From: Streptomyces mirabilis
Lineage (GTDB): Bacteria; Actinomycetota; Actinomycetes; Streptomycetales; Streptomycetaceae
Reading direction: 5' to 3'
Assembly: GCF_018310535.1 (NCBI RefSeq)
Contig: NZ_CP074102.1
Span: forward strand, 1,736,001 to 1,800,000
Length of the DNA stretch: 64,000 nucleotides
A program made the position numbers and the translations under genes. Shown in pieces: positions 34,336 to 48,775 of the stretch (its first letter is position 1; every line of letters begins with the position of its first letter). Below the pieces are notes generated by a model that saw nothing but the letters and a program-made list of their open reading frames with translations, was not told where the DNA came from and searched no databases.

Positions 34336-34343
34336 GGGGGCGC

Positions 34344-35891
34344 GTGGGGATCAAGAGGCGGCACTGGGCGTTGGCGGCGGCACCGCTGGCGCTGGCCCTG
34401 CTGACGACGACCGGCTGTGAGAGCACGTCGGGAGCCGAGGCGGACCCGAAGGCCGCGCCATCCGCATCTGCATCCGCCGCGTCCGCGGCCCGATCCGTGG
34501 CCCGGGTGTGCGCCCACCCCGCGGCCGGGCCGGCGAAGGCGCCGGCAGGCGCGGTGACCGTCGACCCCGCGGTGGTCGGTGACCTGGCCGCGAAGACCAA
34601 GAGCAGCCCCCCGAACACCACGTTCTGGCTTCGACCTGGCAGGCACAGGCTCGACCCGGACCGCTACGCCCAGGTCATCCCCAAGAAGGGGGACCACTAC
34701 CTGGGTGCGCCGGGCGCGGTGCTCGACGGCCGGAAGAAGAACCAGTACGCGTTCGCCGGTACCGCCCGCGATGTCACCATCCGCTATCTGACCGTGCAGG
34801 GTTTCGTCGCGCCGCAGGACGAAGGCGTCGTCAACCACGACTCGGCCGACGGGTGGGTGATCGAACACACGACGATCCAGGACAACTCCGGCGCCGGGCT
34901 GATGGCCGGTGCCCGCCAGCAGGTCCGCGCCAACTGCCTGCGCGACAACGGCCAGTACGGCATGAACGCGTACAAGGGCAACGGCCGCATCACCGGCCTG
35001 GTCGTCGAGGGCAACGAGATCGTGGGCAACAACACCGGCGACTGGGAGCGGCGGCGGAAGGGCTGCGGCTGCACCGGAGGCATCAAGTTCTGGGCCGTCA
35101 ACGGCGCCGACGTGAGCGGCAACTGGGTGCACGACAACCGCGGACCCGGGCTGTGGGCGGACACCGACAACAACGACTTCCGCATCGAGAACAACGTGAT
35201 CGAGGCCAACGACGGTGCCGCACTGATCTACGAGACCAGCTACAACGCGGTCATCCGGGACAACACGATCCGGCGGAACAACTGGGTCGAGGGCCGCAAG
35301 GCGGCCGACAGCGGCGACAACTTCCCGTACGCGACCGTCTACCTGTCCGAGTCCGGGGGCGAACCACGGGTCCCGGCCCGCACCGACAAGATCGAGATCT
35401 ACCGGAACGTGCTGGAGGACAACTGGAACGGGATCACCCTCTGGGAGAACGCCGACCGGTTCTGCAACAGCCCGGCCAACACCTCGTCCGGTGACTGCAC
35501 CCTGCTGGTGAAGAAGACCGCCAGCTGCGCGAAGCCGGCCATCGCCAAGGCACCCCTCTACTCCGACTGCCGGTGGAAGACCCAGCGGGTCGACATCCAC
35601 GGCAACCGCTTCGTGCTCGACGAGTCCGTCGTCAAGTGCGCGGAGAAGTGCGACCGCATGGCGGTGCTGTCCAACTACGGCACCTATCCGGACTGGTCGC
35701 CGTACCAGGGCGAGGGCGTGGCCGACGCGATCACCGAGAAGCAGCACAACCGCTGGCACGACAACACCTACGTCGGGCCATGGAAGTTCGTCGCCCAGGA
35801 CCAGAGCCGGGTGCTCGACTTCGGGCAGTGGCAGGCGACGCCGTACCTGCAGGACAAGGGCAGCACCCTCGACCTACAGGCCGGTGGTTGA
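34344..35891 (+). CDS. Right-handed beta-helix lipoprotein
   Basis: A 515-residue exported protein. The N-terminus (MGIKRRHWALAAAPLALALL, then TTTGC) is a lipoprotein signal with Cys25 as anchor, followed by an Ala/Ser-rich linker. The mature part has repeated parallel beta-helix coils (VIEHTTIQDNSGAGLMAG, LVVEGNEIVGNNTG, VSGNWVHDNRGPGLWAD, IENNVIEANDGAALIYE, VIRDNTIRRNN). This fold occurs in mannuronan epimerases, pectate lyases and polymer-binding proteins. Acting on, or holding, the secreted polymer at the cell surface is a reasonable inference; no catalytic triad can be assigned. Confidence 0.82.
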   Translation: MGIKRRHWALAAAPLALALLTTTGCESTSGAEADPKAAPSASASAASAARSVARVCAHPAAGPAKAPAGAVTVDPAVVGDLAAKTKSSPPNTTFWLRPGRHRLDPDRYAQVIPKKGDHYLGAPGAVLDGRKKNQYAFAGTARDVTIRYLTVQGFVAPQDEGVVNHDSADGWVIEHTTIQDNSGAGLMAGARQQVRANCLRDNGQYGMNAYKGNGRITGLVVEGNEIVGNNTGDWERRRKGCGCTGGIKFWAVNGADVSGNWVHDNRGPGLWADTDNNDFRIENNVIEANDGAALIYETSYNAVIRDNTIRRNNWVEGRKAADSGDNFPYATVYLSESGGEPRVPARTDKIEIYRNVLEDNWNGITLWENADRFCNSPANTSSGDCTLLVKKTASCAKPAIAKAPLYSDCRWKTQRVDIHGNRFVLDESVVKCAEKCDRMAVLSNYGTYPDWSPYQGEGVADAITEKQHNRWHDNTYVGPWKFVAQDQSRVLDFGQWQATPYLQDKGSTLDLQAGG

Positions 35892-35892
35892 G

Positions 35893-37197
35893 ATGGGCGG
35901 CGACCTGACGCGCGGTGGCCTGCCGGGCGGACCGGACACGGCGGGAACGCGACCCGGCGCCGAAGCGCGCCCGGCCGGCACACCGAGGATCGTCGGGATC
36001 GTATGGGGGCTGCTGGTCCTCAACACGCTCGGCTCCGCCGGCGCCAAGACCATCGTCCCGCTGCCCCGCTCCCTCATCCAGATGGTCACCATGGGCTCGC
36101 TGGTCGCCGCGTTCACGCTGGCGCTCGCGGTCAACCAACGGCTGCGCATCCGGCCCAGCGCCTACGTGCTCCTGCTCACCCTGCTGCTGGTGTCGAGCGT
36201 GATCTCCAGCGCGAGCCTGGAGTCCGGGCTCGGCGCGTTGTTCCGCTGCTTCCGGCTGGCTCTCTTCATCGGCACACTGTGGCTGCTCAGCCGCTGGTGG
36301 GACGGCAGCCTGACGTTCGTCCGCCACCACATCCGGATGTACTTCGCGGTGCTCGCGTCGGTGGCCGCCGGCCTGGTCGTCTCACCGGGCGCGGCCCTGC
36401 CCGGCCTCTACGGCGGACGCCTCGTCGGCGCGCTGTGGCCGCTCACCCCGCCGCAGATCGGGCAGTACGCGGCGGTGATCATCGGGCTCACCGTGCTGCT
36501 CGTCCTGGGCCGCCGGACCGACAGGGCCAGCGCCGTGGCGGTCATCGTGCCGTCCTTCGTGCTGCTCGCGCTGACCCATACCCGGACGGCCACGCTCGGC
36601 CTGTTCATCGGACTGGCCCTGGCGATCTGCTCGCTCATCCTGACCAGCGCCGCGGCCCGCCGGTTCTTCACCTGGGCGGTGCTGTGCGCCGTGGTGGCCG
36701 CGGTCGGGTTCGCCTCCGCGCTGCAGTCGTGGTTCCTGCGCGGACAGAGCCAGGAGAACTTCTCCAGTCTCACCGGCCGGGCCAAGGTCTGGAACGCCCT
36801 GCTGGCCGCACCCCGGTCGACCTCGGAGCAGGTGTTCGGCGTGGGCCTGGGCGACAAGTCGTTCGGCGGGCTGCCGATCGACAACAGCTGGCTGGCCGTC
36901 TACAACGAGCAGGGTCTGATCGGCGTCACCCTCGTCGCGGCGATCATCATCGTGCTGGGCGGCGTCGCGCTGCTGCGGCCACCGTCGCTGCAGAGGGCCT
37001 GCGCGATCTTCCTGATCAGCTACTGCGCCATCGCGTCGTACACCGAGGCCGGTCTCGGCGACGCCTCGCCGTATCTGCTTCATCTGGCCCTGGCCGCCGC
37101 GCTGCTGGCGGCACCCGCCGAGGCCGCTGCCCTCCCGATGCCCGAAGTCCCTCGACGACACATCCCGCGCTGGGCCCGTAGATCGGAGGTGACCTGA
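35893..37197 (+). CDS. O-antigen ligase/polymerase (Wzy-like) membrane protein
   Basis: A 434-residue polytopic protein with about ten to eleven TM segments. The large outer loop has ENFSSLTGRAKVWNALLAAP and GVGLGDKSFGGLPIDNSWL, matching the Wzy_C/O-antigen ligase signature (TGR-xx-W and the N-S-W-L segment). It should polymerise lipid-linked repeats outside the membrane. The ATG at 35893 has GGTGG upstream; a GTG at 35884, overlapping the previous stop, is the alternative start. Confidence 0.82.
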   Translation: MGGDLTRGGLPGGPDTAGTRPGAEARPAGTPRIVGIVWGLLVLNTLGSAGAKTIVPLPRSLIQMVTMGSLVAAFTLALAVNQRLRIRPSAYVLLLTLLLVSSVISSASLESGLGALFRCFRLALFIGTLWLLSRWWDGSLTFVRHHIRMYFAVLASVAAGLVVSPGAALPGLYGGRLVGALWPLTPPQIGQYAAVIIGLTVLLVLGRRTDRASAVAVIVPSFVLLALTHTRTATLGLFIGLALAICSLILTSAAARRFFTWAVLCAVVAAVGFASALQSWFLRGQSQENFSSLTGRAKVWNALLAAPRSTSEQVFGVGLGDKSFGGLPIDNSWLAVYNEQGLIGVTLVAAIIIVLGGVALLRPPSLQRACAIFLISYCAIASYTEAGLGDASPYLLHLALAAALLAAPAEAAALPMPEVPRRHIPRWARRSEVT

Positions 37198-37199
37198 GC

Positions 37200-38441
37200 A
37201 TGCACGTCCTCGTGGTGCACAACCGCTACGCCTCCGCGCAGCCGAGCGGGGAGAACAAGGTCGTCGACCAGGAGGTGGCGCTGCTGCGTGCGGCCGGCCA
37301 CCGGGTCGAGGTGTTCGAGCGGCGCAGCGACGACATCGGCTCCCGTTCCCTCCTCGGCAAGGTCGCGGTGCCGCTCCTCGTGCCGTGGAACCCGGCGGTG
37401 CGCACGGAGCTCGCCGCCCTTCTGCGCACCGAGCGGCCGGACGTGGTGCACGTCCACAACGTCTTCCCGCTCCTGTCGCCCGCGGTGCTCGCCGCCTGTG
37501 CCGACGCCGGTGTGCCCGCCGTCGCCACGCTGCACAACTACACCCAGGTCTGCCCGCCCGGCACGCTGCAGCGGGACGGCCGGCCGTGCACCGAGTGCGT
37601 CGGATCCGCGCCGCTGCCCGCCGTCCGGCACGGCTGCTACCGGAACTCCCGCCTCGCGACGGTGCCGCTCGCGGTCAGCATGTCGGTCAACCGGCGCCGG
37701 TGGTGGTCCGGCGTGGAGCGGTTCTTCTGCATCTCCGCGGCGCAGCGCGACGTCCTGGTGCGGGCCGGCATGCCACCCGAGCGACTGGCGGTGAAGCACA
37801 ACTTCGTGCCCGAACCGGGCGCCTGCCGAGCGGGCGCAGGCGAGCATCTGCTCTATCTCGGCCGGCTCGCGGAGGCCAAGGGCGTGCGGCTGCTCATGGC
37901 CGCGTGGGACGAACTCGCCGCCGACGGCGGAGTGGGCGTCCCGCTCGTGATCGCCGGTACGGGGCCGCTGGAGCCGGAGGTGACCGCCTGGGCGGCGGGC
38001 CGGGACGACGTCCGGTACGTCGGCCTTTACGACACGGCGGAGTGCCGGGAGGCCATCGCGCGGTCGGTCGCCGTGGTGGCTCCCTCGACGTGGCTGGAGG
38101 CGTTCGGCCTGGTGGTCGTGGAGGCGATGGCGGCCGGGGTCCCGGTCGTCGCCGCCGGTCACGGCGCCTTCGTCGAACTCGTCGAGGACGGGGTGACCGG
38201 GCTTCTGCACCTGCCGGGCGAGTCCGCATCACTCGCGTCCTGCCTGCGCCGGATCACGGCCGAGTCGGCCCGCAACCGGGAGATGGGCCAGGCGGCCCGG
38301 CGCCGTTACGAGCAGGACTTCAGCCCGGCCGTCGGCCTGGAGCGCCTGTTGGAGGAGTACCGCACCGCCATCGCGGGTCGGTCAGCAATGGCTCGCGGTG
38401 GGGACACCCGCGCGAGCAGGGGGGATGGGGACAGCAGATGA
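37200..38441 (+). CDS. Glycosyltransferase family 4
   Basis: A 413-residue GT-B enzyme. The acceptor side has MHVLVVHNRYASAQPSGENK, VVHVHNVFPLLSPAVL and VATLHNYTQVCPPGTL. The donor side has LLYLGRLAEAKGVRLLM, VIAGTGPLEPEV, WLEAFGLVVVEAMAAGVPVVA, with the E-F-G-x7-E retaining motif. CPPGTLQRDGRPCTECVG is a cysteine pair region seen in this GT4 subgroup. It starts two bases after the polymerase stop and overlaps the next gene by four. Confidence 0.88.
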   Translation: MHVLVVHNRYASAQPSGENKVVDQEVALLRAAGHRVEVFERRSDDIGSRSLLGKVAVPLLVPWNPAVRTELAALLRTERPDVVHVHNVFPLLSPAVLAACADAGVPAVATLHNYTQVCPPGTLQRDGRPCTECVGSAPLPAVRHGCYRNSRLATVPLAVSMSVNRRRWWSGVERFFCISAAQRDVLVRAGMPPERLAVKHNFVPEPGACRAGAGEHLLYLGRLAEAKGVRLLMAAWDELAADGGVGVPLVIAGTGPLEPEVTAWAAGRDDVRYVGLYDTAECREAIARSVAVVAPSTWLEAFGLVVVEAMAAGVPVVAAGHGAFVELVEDGVTGLLHLPGESASLASCLRRITAESARNREMGQAARRRYEQDFSPAVGLERLLEEYRTAIAGRSAMARGGDTRASRGDGDSR

Positions 38442-39673
38442 CACGATGCCGACTCTGCGGCTCGGAAGCTCTGGTGAGCGTCGTCGATCTTGGGGCGACG
38501 CCACCGTGTGAGAGCTTTCTCGCCGCGGACCAACTGGACCAGCCGGAGCCGGCGTACCCGCTGCACCTGCGGGTCTGCACCGACTGCTGGCTCGCGCAGA
38601 TCCCGCCGCTGATCACGCCGGAGGAGACGTTCAAGGAGTACGCGTACTTCTCCTCGTTCTCTACCTCCTGGGTGGAGCACGCGCGCACGTTCGTCGCCGA
38701 CGCCGTACAGCGGCTGGGTCTCGGCACCGACGCCTTCGTGGTCGAGGTGGCGAGCAACGACGGGTACCTGCTGAGGCACGTGGTCGACCGCGGGATCCGC
38801 TGCCTCGGCATCGAGCCGTCGGTGAACGTCGGCGCCGCGGCACGGGACGCGGGTGTGCCCACGCTCACGGAGTTCCTGTCCCCGGACACGGGCTCGGCCG
38901 TCCGCGCCGAGCACGGCCCGGCGGACCTGGTCGTGGCCAACAACGTGTACGCGCACATCCCCGACGTGGTCGGGTTCACCCAGGGGCTGCGCGCCCTGGT
39001 CGCCGACGACGGCTGGGTCTCCATCGAGGTGCAACACCTGCTGACCCTGATCGAGGAGAACCAGTACGACACGATCTACCACGAGCACTTCCAGTACTAC
39101 ACGGTGGCGTCCGCGACCCGAGCCCTCGCGAGCGGCGGACTCGCGCTCGTGGACGTCGAGTTGCTCCCTACGCACGGCGGCTCGATCCGGCTGTGGGCCC
39201 GGCCGGCCGAGGTGGCCGGCGAGCCGACCCGGCGGGTGGCCGACGTGCTGGACCGGGAGAAGGCCGCCGGACTGCAGGAGCTGTCCGGGTACACCGAGTT
39301 CTCCGCCCGGGTGGCCAAGGTGCGCCGGGACCTGCTGCGGTTCCTCATCGACGCGGCCGAGCGCGGCGAGACGGTCGTCGGCTACGGCGCCCCTGGCAAG
39401 GGCAACACCCTGCTCAACCACTGCGGCATCCGGCCCGACCTGCTCGCGTACACGGTCGACCGCAACCCCTACAAGCACGGCAGGTTCACCCCGGGCACCC
39501 GCATCCCGATCCTGCCGCCCGAGCAGATAGCCGCCGACAAGCCGGACTACGTCCTCGTCCTCCCATGGAACCTGCGGGCCGAGCTGGTCGAGCAACTGTC
39601 CTTCGTGCACGACTGGGGCGGCCGGCTGGTCTTTCCGATCCCGGAACTGAGCATTGTCGAGGTCAAGTCATGA
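38438..39673 (+). CDS. Sugar C-methyltransferase (TylC3/NovU-like), SAM-dependent
   Basis: A 411-residue three-part enzyme. The N-terminal zinc domain has cysteines in MTRCRLCGSEA and VCTDCWLAQI. The middle SAM-binding domain has VVEVASNDGYLLRHV and DLVVANNVYAHIPDV. The C-terminal Rossmann-like C-methyltransferase domain has VVGYGAPGKGNTLLNHCGI and PDYVLVLPWN. The architecture equals that of nucleotide-sugar C-3 methyltransferases in antibiotic and lipopolysaccharide pathways, where a methyl branch is put next to a keto group. The first gene of a tightly coupled five-gene sugar module. Confidence 0.87.
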   Translation: MTRCRLCGSEALVSVVDLGATPPCESFLAADQLDQPEPAYPLHLRVCTDCWLAQIPPLITPEETFKEYAYFSSFSTSWVEHARTFVADAVQRLGLGTDAFVVEVASNDGYLLRHVVDRGIRCLGIEPSVNVGAAARDAGVPTLTEFLSPDTGSAVRAEHGPADLVVANNVYAHIPDVVGFTQGLRALVADDGWVSIEVQHLLTLIEENQYDTIYHEHFQYYTVASATRALASGGLALVDVELLPTHGGSIRLWARPAEVAGEPTRRVADVLDREKAAGLQELSGYTEFSARVAKVRRDLLRFLIDAAERGETVVGYGAPGKGNTLLNHCGIRPDLLAYTVDRNPYKHGRFTPGTRIPILPPEQIAADKPDYVLVLPWNLRAELVEQLSFVHDWGGRLVFPIPELSIVEVKS

Positions 39674-40464
39674 AGGTCGTTCTGTTCTGCGGCGGTTACG
39701 GGATGCGCATGCGCAACGGAGCCTCCGACGACGTGCCCAAGCCGATGGCGATGGTCGGGCCGCGACCGCTGATCTGGCACGTCATGCGCTACTACGCGCA
39801 CTTCGGGCACACGGAGTTCATCCTGTGTCTCGGGTACGGGGCTCACCACATCAAGAACTTCTTCCTCAACTACGAGGAGACGGCGTCCAACGACTTCGTG
39901 CTGCGGGGCGGTCGGACCGAGCTGCTGTCCACCGACATCGCGGACTGGACGATCACGTTCGCGCAGACCGGCATCGAGTCGCCGATCGGGGAGCGGCTGC
40001 GCCGGGTGCGGCACCATCTGGACGGCGACGAGATGTTCCTCGCCAACTACGCCGATGTGCTCACCGATGCCCCACTGCCGGAGATGATCGACCGGTTCGC
40101 CCGGCGCGACGCCGGTGCGTCGATGATGGTGGTGCCGCCGCAGTCCTCGTTCCACTGCGTGGAGCTGGGCGAGGACGGCCTGGTGGGGGGCATCACCGCG
40201 GTGAGCGAACTGCCGCTGTGGGAGAACGGCGGCTACTTCGTGCTCCGCCAGGAGGTCTTCGACCACATACCGGAGAACGGGGACCTGGTCGCCGACGGAT
40301 GTGCCCAACTGGCCAAGCGCGGGCGGCTGGTGGCGCACCAGCACCGCGGCTTCTGGAAGCCGACCGACACCGTGAAGGAGCGGGCCGCGCTCGACGACTC
40401 CTACGCCCGGGGCGACCGTCCGTGGGCCGTGTGGGAGCGGAACAGTGCCGGAGTCGGAGCGTGA
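39670..40464 (+). CDS. Sugar-1-phosphate nucleotidyltransferase, cytidylyltransferase-like
   Basis: A 264-residue nucleotidyltransferase with the RfbF-like signature VLFCGGYGMRMRN...PKPMAMVGPRPLIWHVM, KNFFLNY, ERLRRVRHHLDGDEMFLANYAD and RGFWKPTDTVKE. This pattern is nearest to glucose-1-phosphate cytidylyltransferases, which make CDP-glucose for 3,6-dideoxy or branched sugars, rather than to RmlA. The overall length fits. It overlaps the methyltransferase before it and the PIG-L gene after it by four bases each. Confidence 0.82.
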   Translation: MKVVLFCGGYGMRMRNGASDDVPKPMAMVGPRPLIWHVMRYYAHFGHTEFILCLGYGAHHIKNFFLNYEETASNDFVLRGGRTELLSTDIADWTITFAQTGIESPIGERLRRVRHHLDGDEMFLANYADVLTDAPLPEMIDRFARRDAGASMMVVPPQSSFHCVELGEDGLVGGITAVSELPLWENGGYFVLRQEVFDHIPENGDLVADGCAQLAKRGRLVAHQHRGFWKPTDTVKERAALDDSYARGDRPWAVWERNSAGVGA

Positions 40465-41108
40465 TCCGGCTCGGGGCCGGACCCCTTGACCGGATCGTCG
40501 CGGTGGGCGCGCACTGCGACGATATCGCCATCGGCGCCGGCGGCACGCTGCTGACGCTGTGCCAGGCCCGACCGGGTATCCGTGTCGACGCGCTGGTGCT
40601 CTCCGGCGGCGGCAGCGAGCGGGAGCAGGAGGAGCGGGCCGCGCTCGCCGCCTTCTGCCCGGGCGCCGACCTGCGGCTGACCGTGCTCAAGCTGCCGGAC
40701 GGCCGGCTGCCCGCGCACTGGGAGGAGGCCAAGGCCGCGGTCGAGGAGCTGCGCGCGCAGACCGAGCCCGATCTCGTACTGGCCCCGCGCACCGATGACG
40801 CGCACCAGGATCACCGCGGCCTGGCGAAGCTGGTGTCCACCGCGTTCCGCGACCACCTCGTGCTCCGCTACGAGATCGTCAAGTGGGACGGCGATCTCGG
40901 CCGTCCGGTGGCGTACCAGCCGCTGTCCCCGGAGATCGCCGAACAGAAGGTGCGGCTGCTGCAGGAGCACTACCCCTCGCAGCGGCACCGGCCCTGGTAC
41001 GACCGGGAAGCCTTCCTCGGGCTGGCCCGGATCCGCGGCATCGAAAGCCACGCGCGCTACGCCGAGGCGTTCGCCGTCACCAAACTCACTCTCGACCTGG
41101 GGGATTGA
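40461..41108 (+). CDS. PIG-L family deacetylase
   Basis: A 215-residue zinc hydrolase of the LmbE/PIG-L fold, which removes N-acyl groups from amino sugars. The metal motif appears as GAHCDDIAIGAGG (H18, D21; the usual proline is cysteine) and the second as TDDAHQDHRGLAKLV. The C-terminal ARIRGIESHARYAEAF segment is typical of PIG-L members in sugar clusters. It implies that an N-acetylated sugar is deacylated during biosynthesis. The GTG start shares GTGA with the upstream stop. Confidence 0.87.
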   Translation: MIRLGAGPLDRIVAVGAHCDDIAIGAGGTLLTLCQARPGIRVDALVLSGGGSEREQEERAALAAFCPGADLRLTVLKLPDGRLPAHWEEAKAAVEELRAQTEPDLVLAPRTDDAHQDHRGLAKLVSTAFRDHLVLRYEIVKWDGDLGRPVAYQPLSPEIAEQKVRLLQEHYPSQRHRPWYDREAFLGLARIRGIESHARYAEAFAVTKLTLDLGD

Positions 41109-41111
41109 ACC

Positions 41112-42137
41112 TTGCGCGTACTGCTGACCGGACACCAGGGCTATCTGGGCACCGTGATGGCCCCGGTCCTCGCGGCCGCCGGGCACGAGGTCGTCGGTCT
41201 TGACGCCGGCCTGTTCGCCGACTGCGTGCTGGGCCCGCAGCCCGCGGACCCGCCGGGGCCGCGGGTGGACCTGCGCGACGTCACGGCCGAGCACGTGGCC
41301 GGGGTGGATGCCGTGATCCACCTGGCCGCGCTGTCCAACGACCCGCTGGGATCGCTGGCGCCGGAGCTCACCTACGACATCAACCACCACGCGTCCGTGC
41401 GGCTGGCCCGGCTGGCCCGCGACGCCGGAGTGCGGCGCTTCCTGTACGCGTCGACCTGCTCGGTCTACGGCGCCGCAGGCGGCGGCGACCTGGTGACCGA
41501 GGACGCCCCGCTGCGACCGGTGACGCCGTACGCGGAGTCCAAGGTGCGGGTGGAGGACGACCTGCACGCGCTGGCCGACGGCGACTTCAGCCCGGTGTTC
41601 ATGCGCAACGCCACCGCCTTCGGCTACTCGCCCCGGCTGCGCGCCGACATCGTGCTGAACAACCTGGTGGGGCACGCCCTTTTGTCCGGCGAGGTCCTTG
41701 TGCTCTCCGACGGCACCCCCTGGCGCCCGCTGGTGCACGCGGCCGACATCGCACGGGCCTTCGCGGCCGCGCTGACCGCGCCGCGCGAAGCCGTGCACGA
41801 CCGGGCGTTCAACATCGGCAGCGAGATCAACAACGTCACGGTCGCCGAGATCGCCGAGCAGGTCGCCGAGGCGGTAGCCGGCGCGAAGGTGGTGATCACC
41901 GGAGAGACCGGTGCCGATCCGCGGTCGTACCGGGTGGATTTCTCCCGGTTCCGCGCCGCGCTGCCCGGCTTCGACTGCGAGTGGACGGTGAAGCAGGGTG
42001 CGCTCGAACTCGCCGACGCCTACAGGAAACACGGACTGACCCGGGAGGACTTCGAGCGACGCTTCACCCGGCTGGCCGTGCTGCGCGCGGCGACCGAAGC
42101 CGGCGCCGTCGACGACACCCTGCGGTGGCGCCGATGA
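41112..42137 (+). CDS. NAD-dependent sugar-nucleotide epimerase/dehydratase
   Basis: A 341-residue extended short-chain dehydrogenase. It has the TGHQGYLGTVM nucleotide loop, ASTCSVYGA, the YAESK catalytic pair (Tyr-x3-Lys) and FGYSPRLRADIVLNNL. Members next to cytidylyltransferase-like and C-methyltransferase genes probably do epimerisation, reduction or dehydration of the activated sugar. There is no separate CDP-glucose 4,6-dehydratase in the locus, so this enzyme may supply the keto intermediate. Start is a TTG at 41112 three bases after the previous stop. Confidence 0.82.
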   Translation: MRVLLTGHQGYLGTVMAPVLAAAGHEVVGLDAGLFADCVLGPQPADPPGPRVDLRDVTAEHVAGVDAVIHLAALSNDPLGSLAPELTYDINHHASVRLARLARDAGVRRFLYASTCSVYGAAGGGDLVTEDAPLRPVTPYAESKVRVEDDLHALADGDFSPVFMRNATAFGYSPRLRADIVLNNLVGHALLSGEVLVLSDGTPWRPLVHAADIARAFAAALTAPREAVHDRAFNIGSEINNVTVAEIAEQVAEAVAGAKVVITGETGADPRSYRVDFSRFRAALPGFDCEWTVKQGALELADAYRKHGLTREDFERRFTRLAVLRAATEAGAVDDTLRWRR

Positions 42138-43408
42138 CCACGGCCGGCGAAGAGATGCACACGCTGGTGGAACGGTTGTACCCGCTGTGCCGGAGCATCA
42201 CCGGCGACGGTGTGCGCGCCACTCTGGAGATCGTCGGCGAGTACGTCCCGCTGCAGGTGCACGAGGTGCCGACGGGGACTCAGGTGCTCGACTGGACGGT
42301 GCCGCAGGAGTGGAACATCCGGGACGCGTACATCGCCAACACCGCCGGCAACCGGGTCGTCGACTTCGCCGCGTCCAGCCTGCACGTGCTCGGCTACAGC
42401 GTGCCGGTGGCTGCGACCATGCCGCTGGCCGAGCTGCGCGGACATCTGCACACCCTGCCGGACCACCCGGCCTGGGTGCCGTACCGCACCAGCTACTACA
42501 AGCCGGAATGGGGGTTCTGCCTGGCCCAGGAGACCTTGGACGCGCTGCCGGACGGCGAGTACGAGGTGCGCATCGACTCCACACTCGCCGATGGCCACCT
42601 CACCTACGCCGAGCACGTGGTCCCCGGGCAGGTCGCCGACGAGGTGATCGTCTCCTGCCACGTCTGCCACCCGTCGCTGGCCAACGACAACCTGGCCGGC
42701 ATCGCGGTGGCGACGTTCCTGGCGCGAGCGCTGGCGGAGGAGCAGCCGTACTACACCTACCGGTTCCTGTTCGCGCCCGGCACCATCGGGGCGATCACCT
42801 GGCTGGCCCGAAACGCGGAGCGGATCGAACGGGTCAAGCACGGCCTCGTGCTGGCCTGCGCCGGAGACCCGGGACAGGTGACGTACAAGCAGAGCAGGCG
42901 CGGCGACGCGGAGATCGACCGGGTGATGCGGCACGTGCTGGCCGCATCCGAACGCCCGCACCGCGTCAACGAGTTCACTCCGTACGGCTACGACGAGCGG
43001 CAGTTCTGCTCGCCCGGGTTCAATCTGGGCGTGGGCTCGCTCACCCGGACCCCGTACGCGGGCTACCCCGAGTACCACACCTCGGCGGACAACCTGGACT
43101 TCGTCTCCCCGACGGCGATGGCGGACACCCTCGCGGTCTGCCGCGAGGCGTTCGCGGTCCTCGACCGCAACCGGCGGTACCTCAACCTCAGCCCCTACGG
43201 CGAACCGCAGCTGGGCCGGCGCGGGTTGTACGACGCGCTCGGTGGCCGCAGTGACACCAAGCAGGCCCAGATGGCCATGCTCTGGGTGCTCAACCTCTCC
43301 GACGGCGAGCACAGTCTGCTGGACGTCGCCGAGCGGTCCGGGCTCCCGTTCGACACCGTCGCCGGCGCGGCCGGTGCTCTGCACGAGGCCGGGCTGATCA
43401 AGACATGA
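42134..43408 (+). CDS. DUF4910/DUF2172 aminopeptidase-like protein with winged-helix tail
   Basis: A 424-residue protein of the DUF4910 family, an M28-like peptidase fold. Residues about 1-130 carry SITGDGVRATLEIVGEYVPL and VPQEWNIRDAYI, then a small inserted domain. The putative zinc site is in SCHVCHPSLANDNLAG, with a later GYDERQFCSPGFNLGVGSL and YPEYHTSADNLDFV. The last 60 residues (MLWVLNLSDGEHSLLDVAER) form a winged helix. No signal peptide is seen. The family recurs in polysaccharide clusters with unknown chemistry; amide-bond hydrolysis on a sugar is one idea. Confidence 0.8.
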   Translation: MTTAGEEMHTLVERLYPLCRSITGDGVRATLEIVGEYVPLQVHEVPTGTQVLDWTVPQEWNIRDAYIANTAGNRVVDFAASSLHVLGYSVPVAATMPLAELRGHLHTLPDHPAWVPYRTSYYKPEWGFCLAQETLDALPDGEYEVRIDSTLADGHLTYAEHVVPGQVADEVIVSCHVCHPSLANDNLAGIAVATFLARALAEEQPYYTYRFLFAPGTIGAITWLARNAERIERVKHGLVLACAGDPGQVTYKQSRRGDAEIDRVMRHVLAASERPHRVNEFTPYGYDERQFCSPGFNLGVGSLTRTPYAGYPEYHTSADNLDFVSPTAMADTLAVCREAFAVLDRNRRYLNLSPYGEPQLGRRGLYDALGGRSDTKQAQMAMLWVLNLSDGEHSLLDVAERSGLPFDTVAGAAGALHEAGLIKT

Positions 43409-44712
43409 CGCCGATGACCACCGAGGGGGAGAATCCGCAGACAACGGCGCCACCGGCCCGATCCGCCAAGCGGGCCCTCGTCGGCCGGCTCTCCTGGGGA
43501 CTGGCCGACCAGGCGGCCTCCAGCGTGAGCAACTTCGCGGTGGGCATCTACGTGGCCCGCTCGCTGGGGGTGACCGCGTTCGGTGTGTTCAGCCTCGCCT
43601 GGGTGACGTACGGCGTGGTGCTCAACGTCTCCCGCGGCCTTGCCACCGACCCACTCGTGGTGCGCTTCAGCGGGGTGCCGGAGGAGTCCTGGCGCGGGGC
43701 GGTGGCCCGCTCGACGGGTACCGCACTCGGCGTCGGTACGGCCCTCGGAGTGGTGTGTCTGGTGGCCGGGCTCGGCCTCGGCGGCCGGGTGGGGCCCGCG
43801 TTCGCCGCCCTCGGTGTCATGTTGCCGGGGCTGCTGCTCCAGGACGCCTGGCGGTTCTCGTTCTTCGCCGCCGGCAACGGGCGGAAGGCGTTCGTCAACG
43901 ATGTCGTGTGGGGCATCGCGCTCGTCCCGGCCATGGTGGTGGCGGCCCATGTGGGCAGCGTGGCCGCCTTCGTGCTCGCCTGGGGCGCGTCCGCCACGGT
44001 GGCGGCGGGGTACGGCTGCGTCCAGTCCGGCATCCGGCCCCGGACGGCACAGGCACGCGGGTGGCTGCGCGAACAGCGTGATCTCGGCTACCGGTATCTG
44101 GTCGAGAACGTCAGCCTCAGCGGCGCGAGCCAGCTGCGGGCGTACGGGCTCGGCGCGATCGTCGGAGTGAGCGCGGTGGGCGCGGTGCGGGGCGCCGAGC
44201 TCCTGCTCGGCCCGTTCCTCGCCGTACTGATGGGGCTTTCGCTGGTCACCGTCCCGGAGGCGGCACGGGTGCTGCGGCAGGCCCCGCGTCAACTGGGCAG
44301 GTTCTGTCTCCTCCTCGGCGGGGGGCAGGCCGCCGGAGCACTGCTCTGGGGCTCGGCGCTGCTGCTGATGCCGGGCCGGCTCGGCGAGCTGGCGCTCGGC
44401 GACGTCTGGCACTCCTCCTCACACCTCATCGTGCAGATCACCCTCAGCGTCGCGGGAGCGGGCCTCGGCACCGGCGCGGCGGCCGGGCTGCGCGCGCTCG
44501 GCGCGGCCCGGCGCAGCCTGCGCTGCCAGCTGTTCGCCTCCGCCTGCTACGTCGGCGGCGGGCTCGGCGGGGCGGCCCTCGCCGGCACGGCCGGCTCGGC
44601 CTGGGGCGTCGCCGCCGCGACCATCAGCGGCTCGGTCGTGTGGTGGCTGCAACTGCGCTCCGCCCTGCGCGAGCGCCACCGCGATCCCATCCCCGAAGTG
44701 AGGACCTCATGA
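43405..44712 (+). CDS. Wzx-like oligosaccharide flippase
   Basis: A 435-residue MATE/MOP-superfamily protein with about twelve hydrophobic segments. It starts after a 25-residue cytoplasmic lead with RLSWGLADQAASSVSNFAVGIYVARSLGVTAFGV, the usual opening of Wzx and related flippases. It should move the completed undecaprenyl-linked repeat to the outer face. Both ends overlap neighbours by four bases. Confidence 0.82.
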   Translation: MTPMTTEGENPQTTAPPARSAKRALVGRLSWGLADQAASSVSNFAVGIYVARSLGVTAFGVFSLAWVTYGVVLNVSRGLATDPLVVRFSGVPEESWRGAVARSTGTALGVGTALGVVCLVAGLGLGGRVGPAFAALGVMLPGLLLQDAWRFSFFAAGNGRKAFVNDVVWGIALVPAMVVAAHVGSVAAFVLAWGASATVAAGYGCVQSGIRPRTAQARGWLREQRDLGYRYLVENVSLSGASQLRAYGLGAIVGVSAVGAVRGAELLLGPFLAVLMGLSLVTVPEAARVLRQAPRQLGRFCLLLGGGQAAGALLWGSALLLMPGRLGELALGDVWHSSSHLIVQITLSVAGAGLGTGAAAGLRALGAARRSLRCQLFASACYVGGGLGGAALAGTAGSAWGVAAATISGSVVWWLQLRSALRERHRDPIPEVRTS

Positions 44713-45656
44713 CCGACCGACCGAGGCTGAGCATCGGCCTGCCCGTGTACAACGGCGAGGAGTACCTGGCCGAGTCGTTCGACGCCCTGCTCGGCCAGAC
44801 CTACGAGGACTTCGAACTGGTCGTCTCCGACAACGCCTCGACCGACGGGACCGAGGACATCTGCCGCAAGTACGCCGCGCAGGACTCCCGCATCCGGTAC
44901 CTCCGGCTGCCCCGGAACATCGGCGCCACGCCGAACCACAACCATGTGTTCGCCGAGTCCCGCGGCGAACTGTTCAAGTGGGCCTCGCACGACGACCTCT
45001 ACGGCCGCGACCTGCTGCGGCGCTGCGTGGAAGCCCTGGACGAGCGGCCGGACGTGATCCTCGCACACACCGACCAGGCGGTCATCGACGGCGACGGCCA
45101 GGTGACGGTGCCCTACGAGTACACGCTCGCCACCGACTCCCCGCACGCGCCGGAGCGCTTCCGCAGTCTGTTGTTCGAGCCGGGAGGCGACGACTTCTAC
45201 GGGGTGATGCGGGCCGACATGCTGCGCCGGGTGAGGCCGCTCGACAGCTACCACCACGCGGACCGCACCTTCGTCGCCGAGATCACCCTGCACGGGCCCT
45301 TCCACCAGGTGCCGGAGCTGCTGTACTTCCGCCGCGACCACCCCACGCGCGCCGAGCGGGCGAACCCTTCAAAGCGCTCCCGGTGCGTCAACCTGGACCC
45401 GCGCCGGGCAGGCCCGCTGCACCCGACGCCCCGGCTGCTCGCCGAGTACGTCTGGGGCTTCGCCTCGGCGATCCGGCGGGCGCCGCTGTCCCCGGCCGAC
45501 CGGCGCGCGTGCTACCGCCACCTGGCCGCGTGGATGACCAGCCGGGTCCGGCCCGGCGCCGGCGAGCGGGTCGAGGACCGCGCCCCCGTCGACCCGGCCC
45601 AGCTCACGGTCTCCGTCGACGCCCTCGTCGCCGGTCGTGAGGGGAGGCACGCATGA
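44709..45656 (+). CDS. Glycosyltransferase family 2
   Basis: A 315-residue GT-A enzyme. Diagnostic pieces are LSIGLPVYNGEEYLAESFDA, LGQTYEDFELVVSDNASTDG, a DxD-like block around WASHDDLYG, and YHHADRTFVAEI. Inverting addition of a sugar to the lipid-linked intermediate is expected. It is the third and last obvious glycosyltransferase of the locus, which together with the initiating enzyme suggests a repeat unit of about four sugars if each acts once. Confidence 0.87.
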   Translation: MTDRPRLSIGLPVYNGEEYLAESFDALLGQTYEDFELVVSDNASTDGTEDICRKYAAQDSRIRYLRLPRNIGATPNHNHVFAESRGELFKWASHDDLYGRDLLRRCVEALDERPDVILAHTDQAVIDGDGQVTVPYEYTLATDSPHAPERFRSLLFEPGGDDFYGVMRADMLRRVRPLDSYHHADRTFVAEITLHGPFHQVPELLYFRRDHPTRAERANPSKRSRCVNLDPRRAGPLHPTPRLLAEYVWGFASAIRRAPLSPADRRACYRHLAAWMTSRVRPGAGERVEDRAPVDPAQLTVSVDALVAGREGRHA

Positions 45657-46885
45657 CGTCCGCCGACCGAACTCCGGTGCGCGTCGGGGTGTTCGGCCTG
45701 CTCGGCTCCGGCAACCTCGGCAACGACGGCTCGCTCGAAGCCGTCCTCGGATACCTCCGCGCCGACCACCCGGAGGCGGTCGTGGACGCCCTGTGCGGCG
45801 GGCCCGAGGCCGTGACGGCCCGGTTCGGGATCCCCGCCACACGGATGCACTGGAACCGCGCCGAGTACCGGACCGCGTCACGTGCGGGCGCGATCGCGGC
45901 CAAGGGGCTCGGCAAACTCGTCGACGTCTTCCGCACCGCCGCCTGGGTGCGCCGGCACGACGTGGTGATCGTGCCGGGCATGGGCGTCCTGGAGGCCACA
46001 CTGCCGCTGCGGCCGTGGGGCTTTCCGTACTCGCTGTTCCTGCTCTGCGCGAGCGGCCGGCTGCTGCGCACCCGGGTCGCGCTGGTCAGCGTCGGCGCCG
46101 CCGAGATCGGCAACCGGCCCACCCGGGCCCTGGTGCGCTGGTCGGGGCGGCTGGCCGCGTACCGGTCGTACCGGGACGCCCAGTCCCGCGACGCGATGCG
46201 GGCGATGGGCGTGGACACCGCGCGCGACGAGGTCTACCCGGACCTCGCGTTCGCCCTGCCGACGCCACGGGCGAGCGCGCCCTCGGCCCCGCCGGGCCCT
46301 GTCTGCGTCGGCGTCATGGACTTCCACGGCGGCAACGACGATCGCGCCCGGGCCGAGGAGATATACCGGCGCTACCTCGACGGGACGGTCCGGTTCGTCC
46401 GCGCGCTGGTCGAGGAGGGCAGGGCTGTCCGGCTGCTCACCGGTGACGAGTGCGACGCGTCGGTGGTCGCCTCGATCCTCGACGCGGTGGATTCACCGCT
46501 GGTCACCGCTGCCGAGCCGTCCTCACTGGCCGACCTGATGAAGGAGATGGCGGCTGCCGACACCGTGGTGGCGATCCGTTACCACAACCTGATCTGCGCG
46601 CTGAAGACCGGTACGCCGGTGCTCGCTCTCTGCTACGCGGCGAAGAGCGACGCGCTCATGGCGGAGATGGGCCTCGGCGCGTACTGCCACCCGGCGCGCG
46701 AGGTCGACGCCGACCGACTGCTCGAGCAGTTCCGTGCGCTGGAGAAGCGTTCGGCCGAGCTGCGGCAGACCCTCACCGAGCGGAACCTGGCCGCCGCCCG
46801 GCAACTCGAGCACCAGTTCAACTCCTTGACCGCGGCCCTGTTCCCGGCGACCGACCACGCCCACACCTTGCGGAAGGCTCCATGA
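45653..46885 (+). CDS. Polysaccharide pyruvyl transferase family protein
   Basis: A 410-residue CsaB/WcaK-type enzyme that puts a pyruvate ketal on a sugar using phosphoenolpyruvate. Landmarks are VFGLLGSGNLGNDGSLEAVL, VVIVPGMGVLE, GFPYSLFLLCA, and the C-terminal VVAIRYHNLICALKTGTPVLALCYAAKSDALM, which holds the conserved His and donor-binding residues. Pyruvyl groups would add negative charge to the polymer. Four-base overlaps join it to both neighbours. Confidence 0.87.
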   Translation: MTSADRTPVRVGVFGLLGSGNLGNDGSLEAVLGYLRADHPEAVVDALCGGPEAVTARFGIPATRMHWNRAEYRTASRAGAIAAKGLGKLVDVFRTAAWVRRHDVVIVPGMGVLEATLPLRPWGFPYSLFLLCASGRLLRTRVALVSVGAAEIGNRPTRALVRWSGRLAAYRSYRDAQSRDAMRAMGVDTARDEVYPDLAFALPTPRASAPSAPPGPVCVGVMDFHGGNDDRARAEEIYRRYLDGTVRFVRALVEEGRAVRLLTGDECDASVVASILDAVDSPLVTAAEPSSLADLMKEMAAADTVVAIRYHNLICALKTGTPVLALCYAAKSDALMAEMGLGAYCHPAREVDADRLLEQFRALEKRSAELRQTLTERNLAAARQLEHQFNSLTAALFPATDHAHTLRKAP

Positions 46886-47433
46886 AGGCGACCGAAGTCC
46901 CGGAGATCACCGGCGCGTACCTCTTCGAGCCGACGCCGTACGCCGACGAGCGCGGCTTCTTCTGCCGCACGTTCGACGCCGACGTGGTCCGCTCGGTGGG
47001 CCTCGACCCGGACGCCTTCGTCCAGGACAGCCTGTCCCGCTCGGTCCGGGGCGTGCTGCGCGGCCTGCACCTGCGCTCCGGCGCAGGCGAGGCCAAGCTG
47101 GTGCGGTGCTCGTACGGGAGGATCTTCGACGTCGTCGTGGACCTGCGGCCGGACTCGCCGACATACCGGAACCGGGCCTTCTTCGAGCTGTCCGGCGAGA
47201 CGCAGGTGACCTTGTACATCCCGGCGGGGTGCGCGCACGGCTTCCAGGCGCTGACCGAGACCGCCGACACCTCGTACCGGATCGACCGCCCGCACGATCC
47301 GGCCGAGGACGTGACGATCGCCTTCGACGACCCCGAGCTCGCCATCCCCTGGCCGCTGCCGGTCACATCGATGTCCCAGCGGGACCGGGAGGCGCCGAGC
47401 CTCGCCAAGGTCCTGCAGCACAAGGAAAGTTGA
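46882..47433 (+). CDS. RmlC-like dTDP-sugar 3,5-epimerase (cupin)
   Basis: A 183-residue cupin with the RmlC layout: DERGFFCRTFD, QDSLSRSVRGVLRGLHLRSG, KLVRCSYGRIFDVVVDLR, YIPAGCAHGFQAL, TSYRIDRPHDPAEDVTIAFDDPELAIPWP. Catalytic His (in RGLH) and the Tyr (TSYRID) are in place. The locus has no rmlABD partners, so it probably acts on the keto sugar made by the coupled module rather than in rhamnose synthesis. It overlaps the pyruvyl transferase gene by four bases. Confidence 0.85.
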   Translation: MKATEVPEITGAYLFEPTPYADERGFFCRTFDADVVRSVGLDPDAFVQDSLSRSVRGVLRGLHLRSGAGEAKLVRCSYGRIFDVVVDLRPDSPTYRNRAFFELSGETQVTLYIPAGCAHGFQALTETADTSYRIDRPHDPAEDVTIAFDDPELAIPWPLPVTSMSQRDREAPSLAKVLQHKES

Positions 47434-47440
47434 GGTCGGC

Positions 47441-48775
47441 GTGCCCACCGAAGACACCGAAGAACTCCTTCTGCCCCGCTCGCGGGTGGCGAACGAGCGG
47501 CTGCACGCCATGATCCCCGGGGGCGCGCACACCTACGCCAAGGGCGACGACCAGTACCCCGAGAACCTGGCCCCGGTCATCAGCCACGGCCGCGGTGCCC
47601 ACGTGTGGGACATCGACGGCAACCGCTACGTCGAGTACGGCTCCGGCCTGCGGTCGGTCAGCCTCGGCCACGCCCACCCACGCGTGATCGAGGCGGTGCG
47701 GCGGGAACTCGACCGCGGCAGCAACTTCGTCCGGCCGTCCATCGTGGAGGTCGAAGCCGCGGAACGCTTCCTGGCCACGGTGCCGACGGCCGAGATGGTG
47801 AAGTTCGCGAAGAACGGCTCCGACGCCACCACCGCCGCGGTGCGCCTCGCCCGCGCCGCCACCGGGCGCCCGCGGGTGGCCATCTGCGCCGACCATCCGT
47901 TCTTCTCCGTCGACGACTGGTTCATCGGCACCACGCAGATGTCCGCCGGCATTCCGGCGGCGACCAACGAGCTCACCGTGGCGTTCCCTTACGGGGACCT
48001 GGCCGCCACGCAGGAGCTGCTCACCCGGTACCAGGACGAGGTCGCCTGCCTGATCCTGGAACCCGCCACCCACACCGAGCCGCCGCCCGGGTACCTCGCC
48101 GGCCTGCGCGAGCTGGCCGACCGGCACGGCTGCGTACTGATCTTCGATGAGATGATCACCGGCTTCCGCTGGTCCGAGGCGGGCGCCCAGGGCCTGTACG
48201 GCGTCGTCCCCGACCTCTCCACGTTCGGCAAGGCGCTGGGCAACGGATTCGCCGTCTCCGCGCTGGCCGGGCGGCGCGATCTGATGGAGCGGGGCGGGCT
48301 GCGTCACTCCGGAGACCGGGTGTTCCTGCTGTCCACCACGCACGGTGCGGAAACACACTCCCTGGCAGCAGCGATGGCCGTGCAGACCACCTACATCGAG
48401 GAGGGCGTCACCGCGCGGCTGCACGCCCTGGGCGAGCGGCTGACCGCCGGTGTCCGCGACGCCGCGGCCGCCATGGGCGTCGGCGACCACGTCGTCGTCC
48501 GGGGCCGGGCCAGCAACCTGGTCTTCGCCACCCTCGACGAGAACCTGCGGCCGTCGCAGCGGTACCGCACCCTGTTCCTGCGCCGACTCCTCGCGGGCGG
48601 GGTGCTGGCCCCGTCGTTCGTGGTGAGCAGCGCGCTCGACGACGCCGACATCGATCACACCGTCGACGTGGTGGCCCAGGCATGTGCGGTGTACCGGAAG
48701 GCACTGGACGCCGCTGACCCCACCCCCTGGCTGGCCGGACGACCGGTGAAGCCCGTATTCCGCCGCCGGGCGTGA
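47441..48775 (+). CDS. PLP-dependent aminotransferase/aminomutase (GSA-AT-like), sugar locus type
   Basis: A 444-residue class III PLP enzyme. It has IPGGAHTYAKGDDQYPENLAP, VWDIDGNRYVEYGSGLRSVSLGH, FAKNGSDATTAAVRLARAATG, LIFDEMITGFRWSEAGAQ and the Schiff-base lysine in STFGKALGNGF. It resembles glutamate-1-semialdehyde aminomutase, but position at the end of a polysaccharide operon argues for transamination of a keto sugar. It starts at GTG 47441, seven bases after the epimerase gene, and is the last gene of the operon. Confidence 0.85.
   Translation: MPTEDTEELLLPRSRVANERLHAMIPGGAHTYAKGDDQYPENLAPVISHGRGAHVWDIDGNRYVEYGSGLRSVSLGHAHPRVIEAVRRELDRGSNFVRPSIVEVEAAERFLATVPTAEMVKFAKNGSDATTAAVRLARAATGRPRVAICADHPFFSVDDWFIGTTQMSAGIPAATNELTVAFPYGDLAATQELLTRYQDEVACLILEPATHTEPPPGYLAGLRELADRHGCVLIFDEMITGFRWSEAGAQGLYGVVPDLSTFGKALGNGFAVSALAGRRDLMERGGLRHSGDRVFLLSTTHGAETHSLAAAMAVQTTYIEEGVTARLHALGERLTAGVRDAAAAMGVGDHVVVRGRASNLVFATLDENLRPSQRYRTLFLRRLLAGGVLAPSFVVSSALDDADIDHTVDVVAQACAVYRKALDAADPTPWLAGRPVKPVFRRRA

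Follow-up and report, generated by a model that had tools for sequence, protein, structure and literature searches.

A module of five genes in a long plus-strand polysaccharide operon of Streptomyces mirabilis (contig NZ_CP074102.1, genome 9.62 Mb) was analysed within a window, that is, the whole 64-kb stretch of DNA studied, and all coordinates below are positions within it. The genes, all on the plus strand, encode a sugar C-methyltransferase (MT, 38438..39673), an RfbF-like sugar-1-phosphate cytidylyltransferase with changed motifs (CT, 39670..40464), a PIG-L/LmbE deacetylase with a GTG start (40461..41108), an extended short-chain dehydrogenase/reductase (SDR) with a TTG start, here called EPI (41112..42137), and a DUF4910/DUF2172/HTH_47 protein (42134..43408). 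An RmlC-type 3,5-epimerase of the same module (46882..47433) and a class-III pyridoxal phosphate (PLP) enzyme (47441..48775) follow on the same strand. Our data indicate that the module is real, conserved and widespread, and uncharacterised as a whole, with parts of known kinds. We give a probability of roughly 0.5 to the reading that these genes make one nucleoside diphosphate (NDP)-activated, probably cytidine diphosphate (CDP)-activated, C-methyl-branched sugar for an exported polysaccharide, with no need for a 4,6-dehydratase.

In the proposed route CT would activate a sugar 1-phosphate, which is unlikely to be plain glucose 1-phosphate since the motifs of CT differ from those of RfbF, and PIG-L would take an N-acyl group off that sugar or its nucleotide. 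EPI would oxidise C4 with NAD+ to a 4-keto sugar with the C6 hydroxyl retained, by analogy with the action of Cj1427 on GDP-heptose, and the ketone would let RmlC invert C3/C5 and MT methylate C3. The PLP enzyme may aminate a carbonyl, or EPI or another reductase may return it to an alcohol. The DUF4910 protein would perform a late zinc-dependent finishing step, which could be dropped or exchanged for a second C-methyltransferase, the exchange of the genes themselves being observed.

Recurrence of the module and its core

The order MT-CT-PIG-L-EPI-DUF4910 on one strand was found in 80/80 of the loci whose DUF4910 is nearest to that of the window, a sample chosen by DUF4910 similarity and consisting of Actinomycetota only. 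The closest DUF4910 proteins come from Streptomyces and Kitasatospora, and the sample includes Amycolatopsis, Prauserella, Microbispora, Nonomuraea and Kutzneria, in which the module is set in a largely different operon. RmlC and the PLP gene are also present in 66 of the 80 loci, within the stretch examined. A rearranged form, EPI-DUF4910-RmlC(reverse)-MT-CT-PIG-L, occurs on Alphaproteobacterial plasmids in Agrobacterium, 'Roseateles', Qingshengfaniella and Mesorhizobium; the 'Roseateles' record is flagged UNVERIFIED_ORG and is therefore not counted as Betaproteobacteria. The PLP gene adjoins EPI (PLP-EPI-...) in Agrobacterium and 'Roseateles', lies about 6 kb off in Qingshengfaniella and was not seen in the Mesorhizobium plasmid stretch examined. 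Among plasmids, 42 DUF4910 records were found and 15 of them opened (L051-L060, L159-L161, L165, L166), and the search with the PLP enzyme gave five more regions (L157, L158, L162-L164). A first, sequence-only reading of the window had asked for the five-gene order in other polysaccharide loci and had supposed that RmlC and the PLP enzyme complete the set; the order does recur, and both enzymes accompany the module in other bacteria.

That reading was also correct as to coordinates, families and spacing, as judged from the reading frames and from families assigned by hmmscan: MT/CT, CT/PIG-L and EPI/DUF4910 overlap by 4 bases each and the gap from PIG-L to EPI is 3 bases. In the set of 80 loci, 4-base overlaps are possible at MT/CT in 69, at CT/PIG-L in 76 and at EPI/DUF4910 in 72, and the PIG-L/EPI gap is 0-9 bases with the nearest start in 76. 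Since flanking genes of the window overlap by 4 bases too (GT4/MT, DUF4910/flippase candidate and GT2/pyruvyl transferase), the overlaps alone cannot delimit these five genes.

The set is coupled, as the sequence-only reading had it, but it is not obligate. With at most 7 candidates scored per genome, a PIG-L probe matched 14 of 396 phylum genomes, and seven of these (G333, G391, G566, G613, G412, G466 and G309) lie outside the 20 genomes with a DUF4910 match. CT and PIG-L occur in nine loci that have no DUF4910, among them a 5-kb contig (G309) that carries MT-CT-PIG-L, so that the idea of five genes as an obligate unit was rejected and that of a coupled sugar-nucleotide unit kept. MT-CT-PIG-L-EPI stand together in G333, G566 and G613 and, alongside further methyltransferases, in G412; CT-PIG-L-EPI are found in G391 with MT about 10 kb away, and in G466 with no MT found in the region. 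The arrangement MT-CT-PIG-L-EPI-RmlC(reverse)-second C-methyltransferase is shared by G333, G566, G613 and by Tsukamurella and Gordonia plasmids, with the PLP gene in three of the five. This second, divergent C-methyltransferase replaces DUF4910 at L157:8871-9983 and L158:8851-9978, and also in L213, L215 and L216; the L157 copy belongs to Methyltransf_13/14 and the L158 copy is 57% identical to it. The place of DUF4910 is thus filled otherwise in other lineages, and it is evident that a nucleotide sugar can be completed in its absence. The steadier core is MT-CT-PIG-L-EPI, plus RmlC, the PLP enzyme and an exchangeable finishing enzyme, and DUF4910 is optional.

The distribution of DUF4910 is patchy, with 69 of 297 Streptomycetaceae genomes (72 at E<=1e-3, from which the partial matches in G017, G025 and G058, at 1.7e-8 to 6.5e-7, were dropped) and 15 of 396 phylum genomes over the cut-off. 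Carriage of the module-type DUF4910 by phages was considered and rejected, as the phage collection gave no match and every one of the 16 DUF4910 loci in IMG/VR has the other, non-module kind described below. In Gandjariella thermophila (L114), which we take to be a member of the Pseudonocardiaceae, the Streptomyces-type operon is complete, with 73-88% identity from the heparinase-like gene through to the PLP gene; as the operon around the module is a different one in Amycolatopsis and Prauserella, the cluster seems to have been transferred as a whole. An otherwise module-like locus in a draft genome (L203) has a PIG-L match (G502:C188:8672-9298) with one internal TGA, which may reflect decay or an assembly error.

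Nucleotide activation and the source of the C4 ketone

MT matches Methyltransf_13 (83.8 bits), Methyltransf_14 (215.6 bits) and Methyltransf_23, an IYHEHF-type motif is present in its family, and its closest solved relative is the D-mycarose 3-C-methyltransferase TylC3 (295.5 bits). From this likeness we infer that MT would methylate C3 of a 4-keto sugar. The active site of RmlC enzymes includes a His and a Tyr, both of which are carried by RGLH and YRID in the protein of the window; its score against TIGR01221 (156.4 bits) is just over the cut-off of 155.75. The PLP enzyme scores 715.6 bits against a cut-off of 486 for NF004856/PRK06209, the 'glutamate-1-semialdehyde 2,1-aminomutase' family. 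This family also occurs in nonulosonate-type loci (L162, L163), where class-III PLP relatives lie beside an SDR gene in the vicinity of NeuB-type genes, in one case behind split transketolase-like genes.

RfbF makes CDP-sugars, and our reading of CT is based on its resemblance to that enzyme. The score of CT against TIGR02623 (183.4 bits) does not reach the RfbF cut-off of 300.25, and that to 1tzf is 143.5 bits. Among the aligned CT sequences [FY]H replaces the Arg-[FY]-G of RfbF in 94/97, as in the PPQSSFHC of the window, and the EK of the RfbF motif EKP, a motif also missing from the CT of the window, is kept in only 3/97. Features of RfbF are seen in L054, L159 and L183; the first two score above the cut-off for RfbF (402.5 and 363.7 bits) and there is no PIG-L on either record, and L183 gives 271.2 bits with PIG-L present. 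PIG-L is found in all 17 clusters with the module-type CT. Its match to PF02585 is 59.2 bits over a cut-off of 28.2, and the metal motifs AHxDD and HxxH are kept in 95/95 rows (AHCDD and HQDH, both intact, in the window). The pairing of PIG-L with the changed CT is a weak hint that an N-acylated amino-sugar phosphate is handled by this CT and deacylated by PIG-L. The sequence-only reading had favoured cytidine monophosphate (CMP) or a similar nucleotide; CMP itself is not borne out, and activation is probably as an NDP-sugar with CDP as the probable carrier. With CT below the RfbF cut-off and two RfbF motifs lost, however, even the nucleotide can only be inferred.

Relatives of MT (TylC3/TcaB9) and the chemistry of RmlC need a C4 keto group, of which a 4,6-dehydratase is the usual source. 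None is encoded in the unit, as had been noticed from the letters alone, and no canonical CDP-glucose 4,6-dehydratase (TIGR02622) is found in the genome, where the best of all 19 candidates scored gives 71.2 bits against a cut-off of 278.45. With 6 candidates scored per listed genome, matches over this cut-off occur in only 3 of 297 Streptomycetaceae genomes (G291, G134 and G211) and in none of the 69 with full DUF4910. The 12 further genomes or plasmid records likewise gave none, the plasmid records standing here for themselves and not for the chromosomes.

Two observations weigh against a route without a dehydratase. The dTDP-glucose 4,6-dehydratase RmlB is present in the genome of the window (440.9 bits) and in 60 of 72 DUF4910 genomes (the 69 above plus G356, G502 and G454); and the 12 genomes with no RmlB match at E<=1e-60 all hold other GDP_Man_Dehyd-type SDRs, which are not assignable. 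The housekeeping RmlA and RmlB could supply a 4-keto-6-deoxy sugar to RmlC, MT and EPI, the latter as C4 ketoreductase, with CT, PIG-L and the PLP enzyme serving a second sugar. Relatives of MT and RmlC do classically act on dTDP-4-keto-6-deoxy sugars. Dehydratase and methyltransferase are also found side by side in Sinorhizobium meliloti, whose ddhA, ddhB and NDP-hexose 3-C-methyltransferase are numbered consecutively (SMb21416-21418) in the part of the source consulted (PMC4053727). That set resembles the present one in joining CDP-sugar enzymes to a 3-C-methyltransferase, but it includes the CDP-glucose 4,6-dehydratase ddhB, which the present module does not have. We nevertheless consider such borrowing rather unlikely. 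Eleven of the 12 genomes without an RmlB match carry all seven genes (the twelfth, G356, has only MT, EPI and DUF4910), all candidates having been scored in 11 of the 12 and 26 of 29 in G086, and in six of the 12 a match to the GDP-mannose 4,6-dehydratase GMD is missing as well. TIGR02622 enzymes are nearly absent from Streptomycetaceae, and the coupling of CT between MT and PIG-L, with the 4-base overlaps available in 69 and 76 of the 80 loci, argues against two separate sugars.

We propose that EPI supplies the C4 ketone needed by MT and RmlC. It is an extended SDR with YxxxK and a STCSVYG stretch, and its best match by sequence in the Protein Data Bank is 6vo6, the Cj1427 of Campylobacter jejuni (102.5 bits), followed by C4-epimerases, with the 4,6-dehydratase DesIV at 62.0. 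Foldseek also ranks Cj1427 first (28% identity in the alignment) for the predicted model of EPI, which has a predicted local distance difference test score (pLDDT) of 82.2. A finer structural aligner tied GalE, Cj1427 and DesIV, and deciding the reaction of EPI by structure was dropped. Dehydratases carry an Asp or Glu at the place of the STCSVYG stretch. Neither residue is found there, or in its close variants, in any of 98 rows (0/98, one row, L058, coming from outside the module), and this, together with the C4-dehydrogenase and C4-epimerases among the top sequence matches, makes it improbable that EPI is itself a non-canonical CDP-sugar 4,6-dehydratase giving a 6-deoxy C-methyl sugar.

A precedent for a 4-keto sugar formed without 6-deoxygenation is the GDP-heptose route of C. 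jejuni, in which, according to the text consulted, the C4-dehydrogenase Cj1427 works with a C3/C5 epimerase and then a C4 reductase (PMC10680097). EPI and RmlC resemble the first two enzymes of this route (Cj1427 and Cj1430). The C. jejuni route differs in using GDP-heptose, and the text consulted gives no C-methyltransferase in it. If EPI acts as a C4-dehydrogenase, RmlC and MT could do without a dehydratase, which would be the most economical arrangement, and the C6 hydroxyl would stay.

The DUF4910 protein and its two kinds

The chain matches PF16254 (390.9 bits), PF09940 (135.7 bits) and PF16221 (109.3 bits), all over cut-off, its predicted model has a pLDDT of 88.5, and it has the peptidase M28 fold. 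Residues H179, D185 and H315 correspond to the Zn residues His189, Asp195 and His324 of 3k9t. The catalytic Asp and Glu of M28 and the full two-zinc ligand set are not present, Ser181 and Pro215 standing at the catalytic places and Gly216 at the next Glu (M28 positions as named in the parts of PMC4000134 consulted). Such losses, and the trimer held through the winged-helix domain that is described in those same parts (Das et al. 2014, PMC4000134), would fit a catalytically dead scaffold or assembly subunit, a structural part of a co-inherited set. We think this has only a small chance of being right, as all 123 rows (the window and 122 loci) keep His179 and His315, and 105 of them Asp185, with Asn in the remaining 18, all of the other kind, and as a sugar of C. 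jejuni lacks an acyl modification when the relative Cj1295 is lost (PMC3068675, in the part consulted).

At 80% identity the 122 locus sequences and the window form 46 clusters, of which 21 are of the module kind, 22 of the other kind and three distant. The module DUF4910s make up one clade whose metal site is changed (H176 and G/A216), and their relatives have Y176/E216. Twelve of the 22 other-kind clusters lie with nonulosonate genes, seven with an AAC(3)-like gene only and three with neither (E<=1e-15); MT is found in 0/22, and an EPI-like and an RmlC-like match in two each. In the tree a single branch (100/96) sets the module kind apart, and the two kinds are connected by one change. Many independent changes of the metal site were therefore rejected, and the match between metal site and gene context counts as one event and not as independent cases that agree. 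The other kind does not form a single clade in this tree, where L141 and L142 group with the module kind (91/72), and long branches were flagged. A third setting for the family is a distant DUF4910 (32% identity) on a Solidesulfovibrio carbinolicus plasmid (L059), amid several radical-SAM genes and a sialate O-acetylesterase gene.

Partners of the 21 module-clade clusters, within limited flanks, are MT in 21, EPI in 20, CT in 20, PIG-L in 18, RmlC in 17 and the PLP enzyme in nine. The most constant partners of DUF4910 are thus MT, EPI and CT, not PIG-L or the PLP enzyme, which counts against, but leaves room for, a function confined to an N-acyl group. As to its chemistry, the option we favour, at slightly less than even odds, is that an N-acyl group is removed or transferred, followed closely by another zinc-assisted reaction on the C-methylated sugar, with a non-catalytic part third. 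It is a bolder and correspondingly doubtful proposal that the module combines a C4-dehydrogenase in place of 4,6-dehydration with a C3-methyl sugar that keeps its C6 hydroxyl, and that the H176/G216 DUF4910s would form a new class of zinc enzyme with a peptidase fold and a rebuilt metal site, acting on the sugar nucleotide or its C-methylated keto form. The sugar may be a CDP-2-amino sugar, given that PIG-L accompanies the module-type CT in each of the 17 clusters that have this CT.

It had been supposed from the sequence that a role of DUF4910 in sugar chemistry was undescribed. This was rejected, as two papers, each consulted in part, already link the family to sugars. Das et al. 2014 tied it to sugar loci (PMC4000134), and in their 3k9t, C. 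acetobutylicum CA_C2195, the residues at the H176 and G/A216 positions of the module clade are Tyr and Glu; a gene of the sialic-acid-synthase type is located nearby (PMC4000134, Table 2). The parts consulted do not mention two clades, the MT-CT-PIG-L-EPI core or a missing dehydratase. The DUF4910-family protein Cj1295 of C. jejuni is needed to modify a sugar: when it is lost, 2,3-di-O-methylglyceroyl pseudaminic acid is absent, and an expressed copy restores this form (PMC3068675). Cj1295 acts in a nonulosonate pathway and is likened here by family. The claim of an unknown pathway stands, as the module is conserved and uncharacterised as a whole; a paper describing it was not found in the open-access literature, a coverage outside which most subscription papers lie.

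The host operon and its counterpart in S. coelicolor

The operon that hosts the module also contains, on the plus strand, genes for a Wzy-like protein (PF04932 below cut-off) and a GT4 glycosyltransferase (35884..38441), a flippase candidate (43405..44712), so called by our own reading, without a Pfam match and outside the cross-phylum core, and a GT2 glycosyltransferase and a polysaccharide pyruvyl transferase (44709..46885), besides RmlC and the PLP enzyme. Its other members are a sugar transferase, two Wzz-type proteins, an asparagine-synthase-like enzyme, a bi-domain oxidoreductase and a heparinase-like protein. A heparinase II/III-like gene and a gene which we read, by reading only, as beta-helix-like lie at 32374-35891 inside the operon, and they hint at a polymer containing uronic acid.

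The same gene order and annotations (SCO0392-0396, 0400 and 0401) are found in SCO0381-0401 of S. coelicolor, compared by order and names and not by sequence. This has been called a 'deoxysugar/glycosyltransferase cluster' (PMC2000904, PMC3610822, PMC4021200), and what the text consulted tells of it is limited to expression and proteome. Five of its proteins were measured and four were down at least two-fold in a bldA mutant (PMC2000904), SCO0396 transcripts were up in the second mycelium (log2 2.7, 3.7 and 3.4 at 24, 48 and 72 h; PMC3610822), and several of its genes are listed as affected by deletion of adpA (PMC4021200). The missing dehydratase makes the 'deoxysugar' label doubtful.

A model organism expresses a 21-gene cluster for whose sugar no description was found, and the module offers a concrete, testable route, predicting a C-methyl-branched, not 6-deoxy, sugar class that the 'deoxysugar' label would miss. 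For the DUF4910 family, the loci that exchange this domain of unknown function for another enzyme narrow its possible functions, and the two kinds, with their different metal sites and different sugar settings, provide a natural comparison by which that function may be approached.

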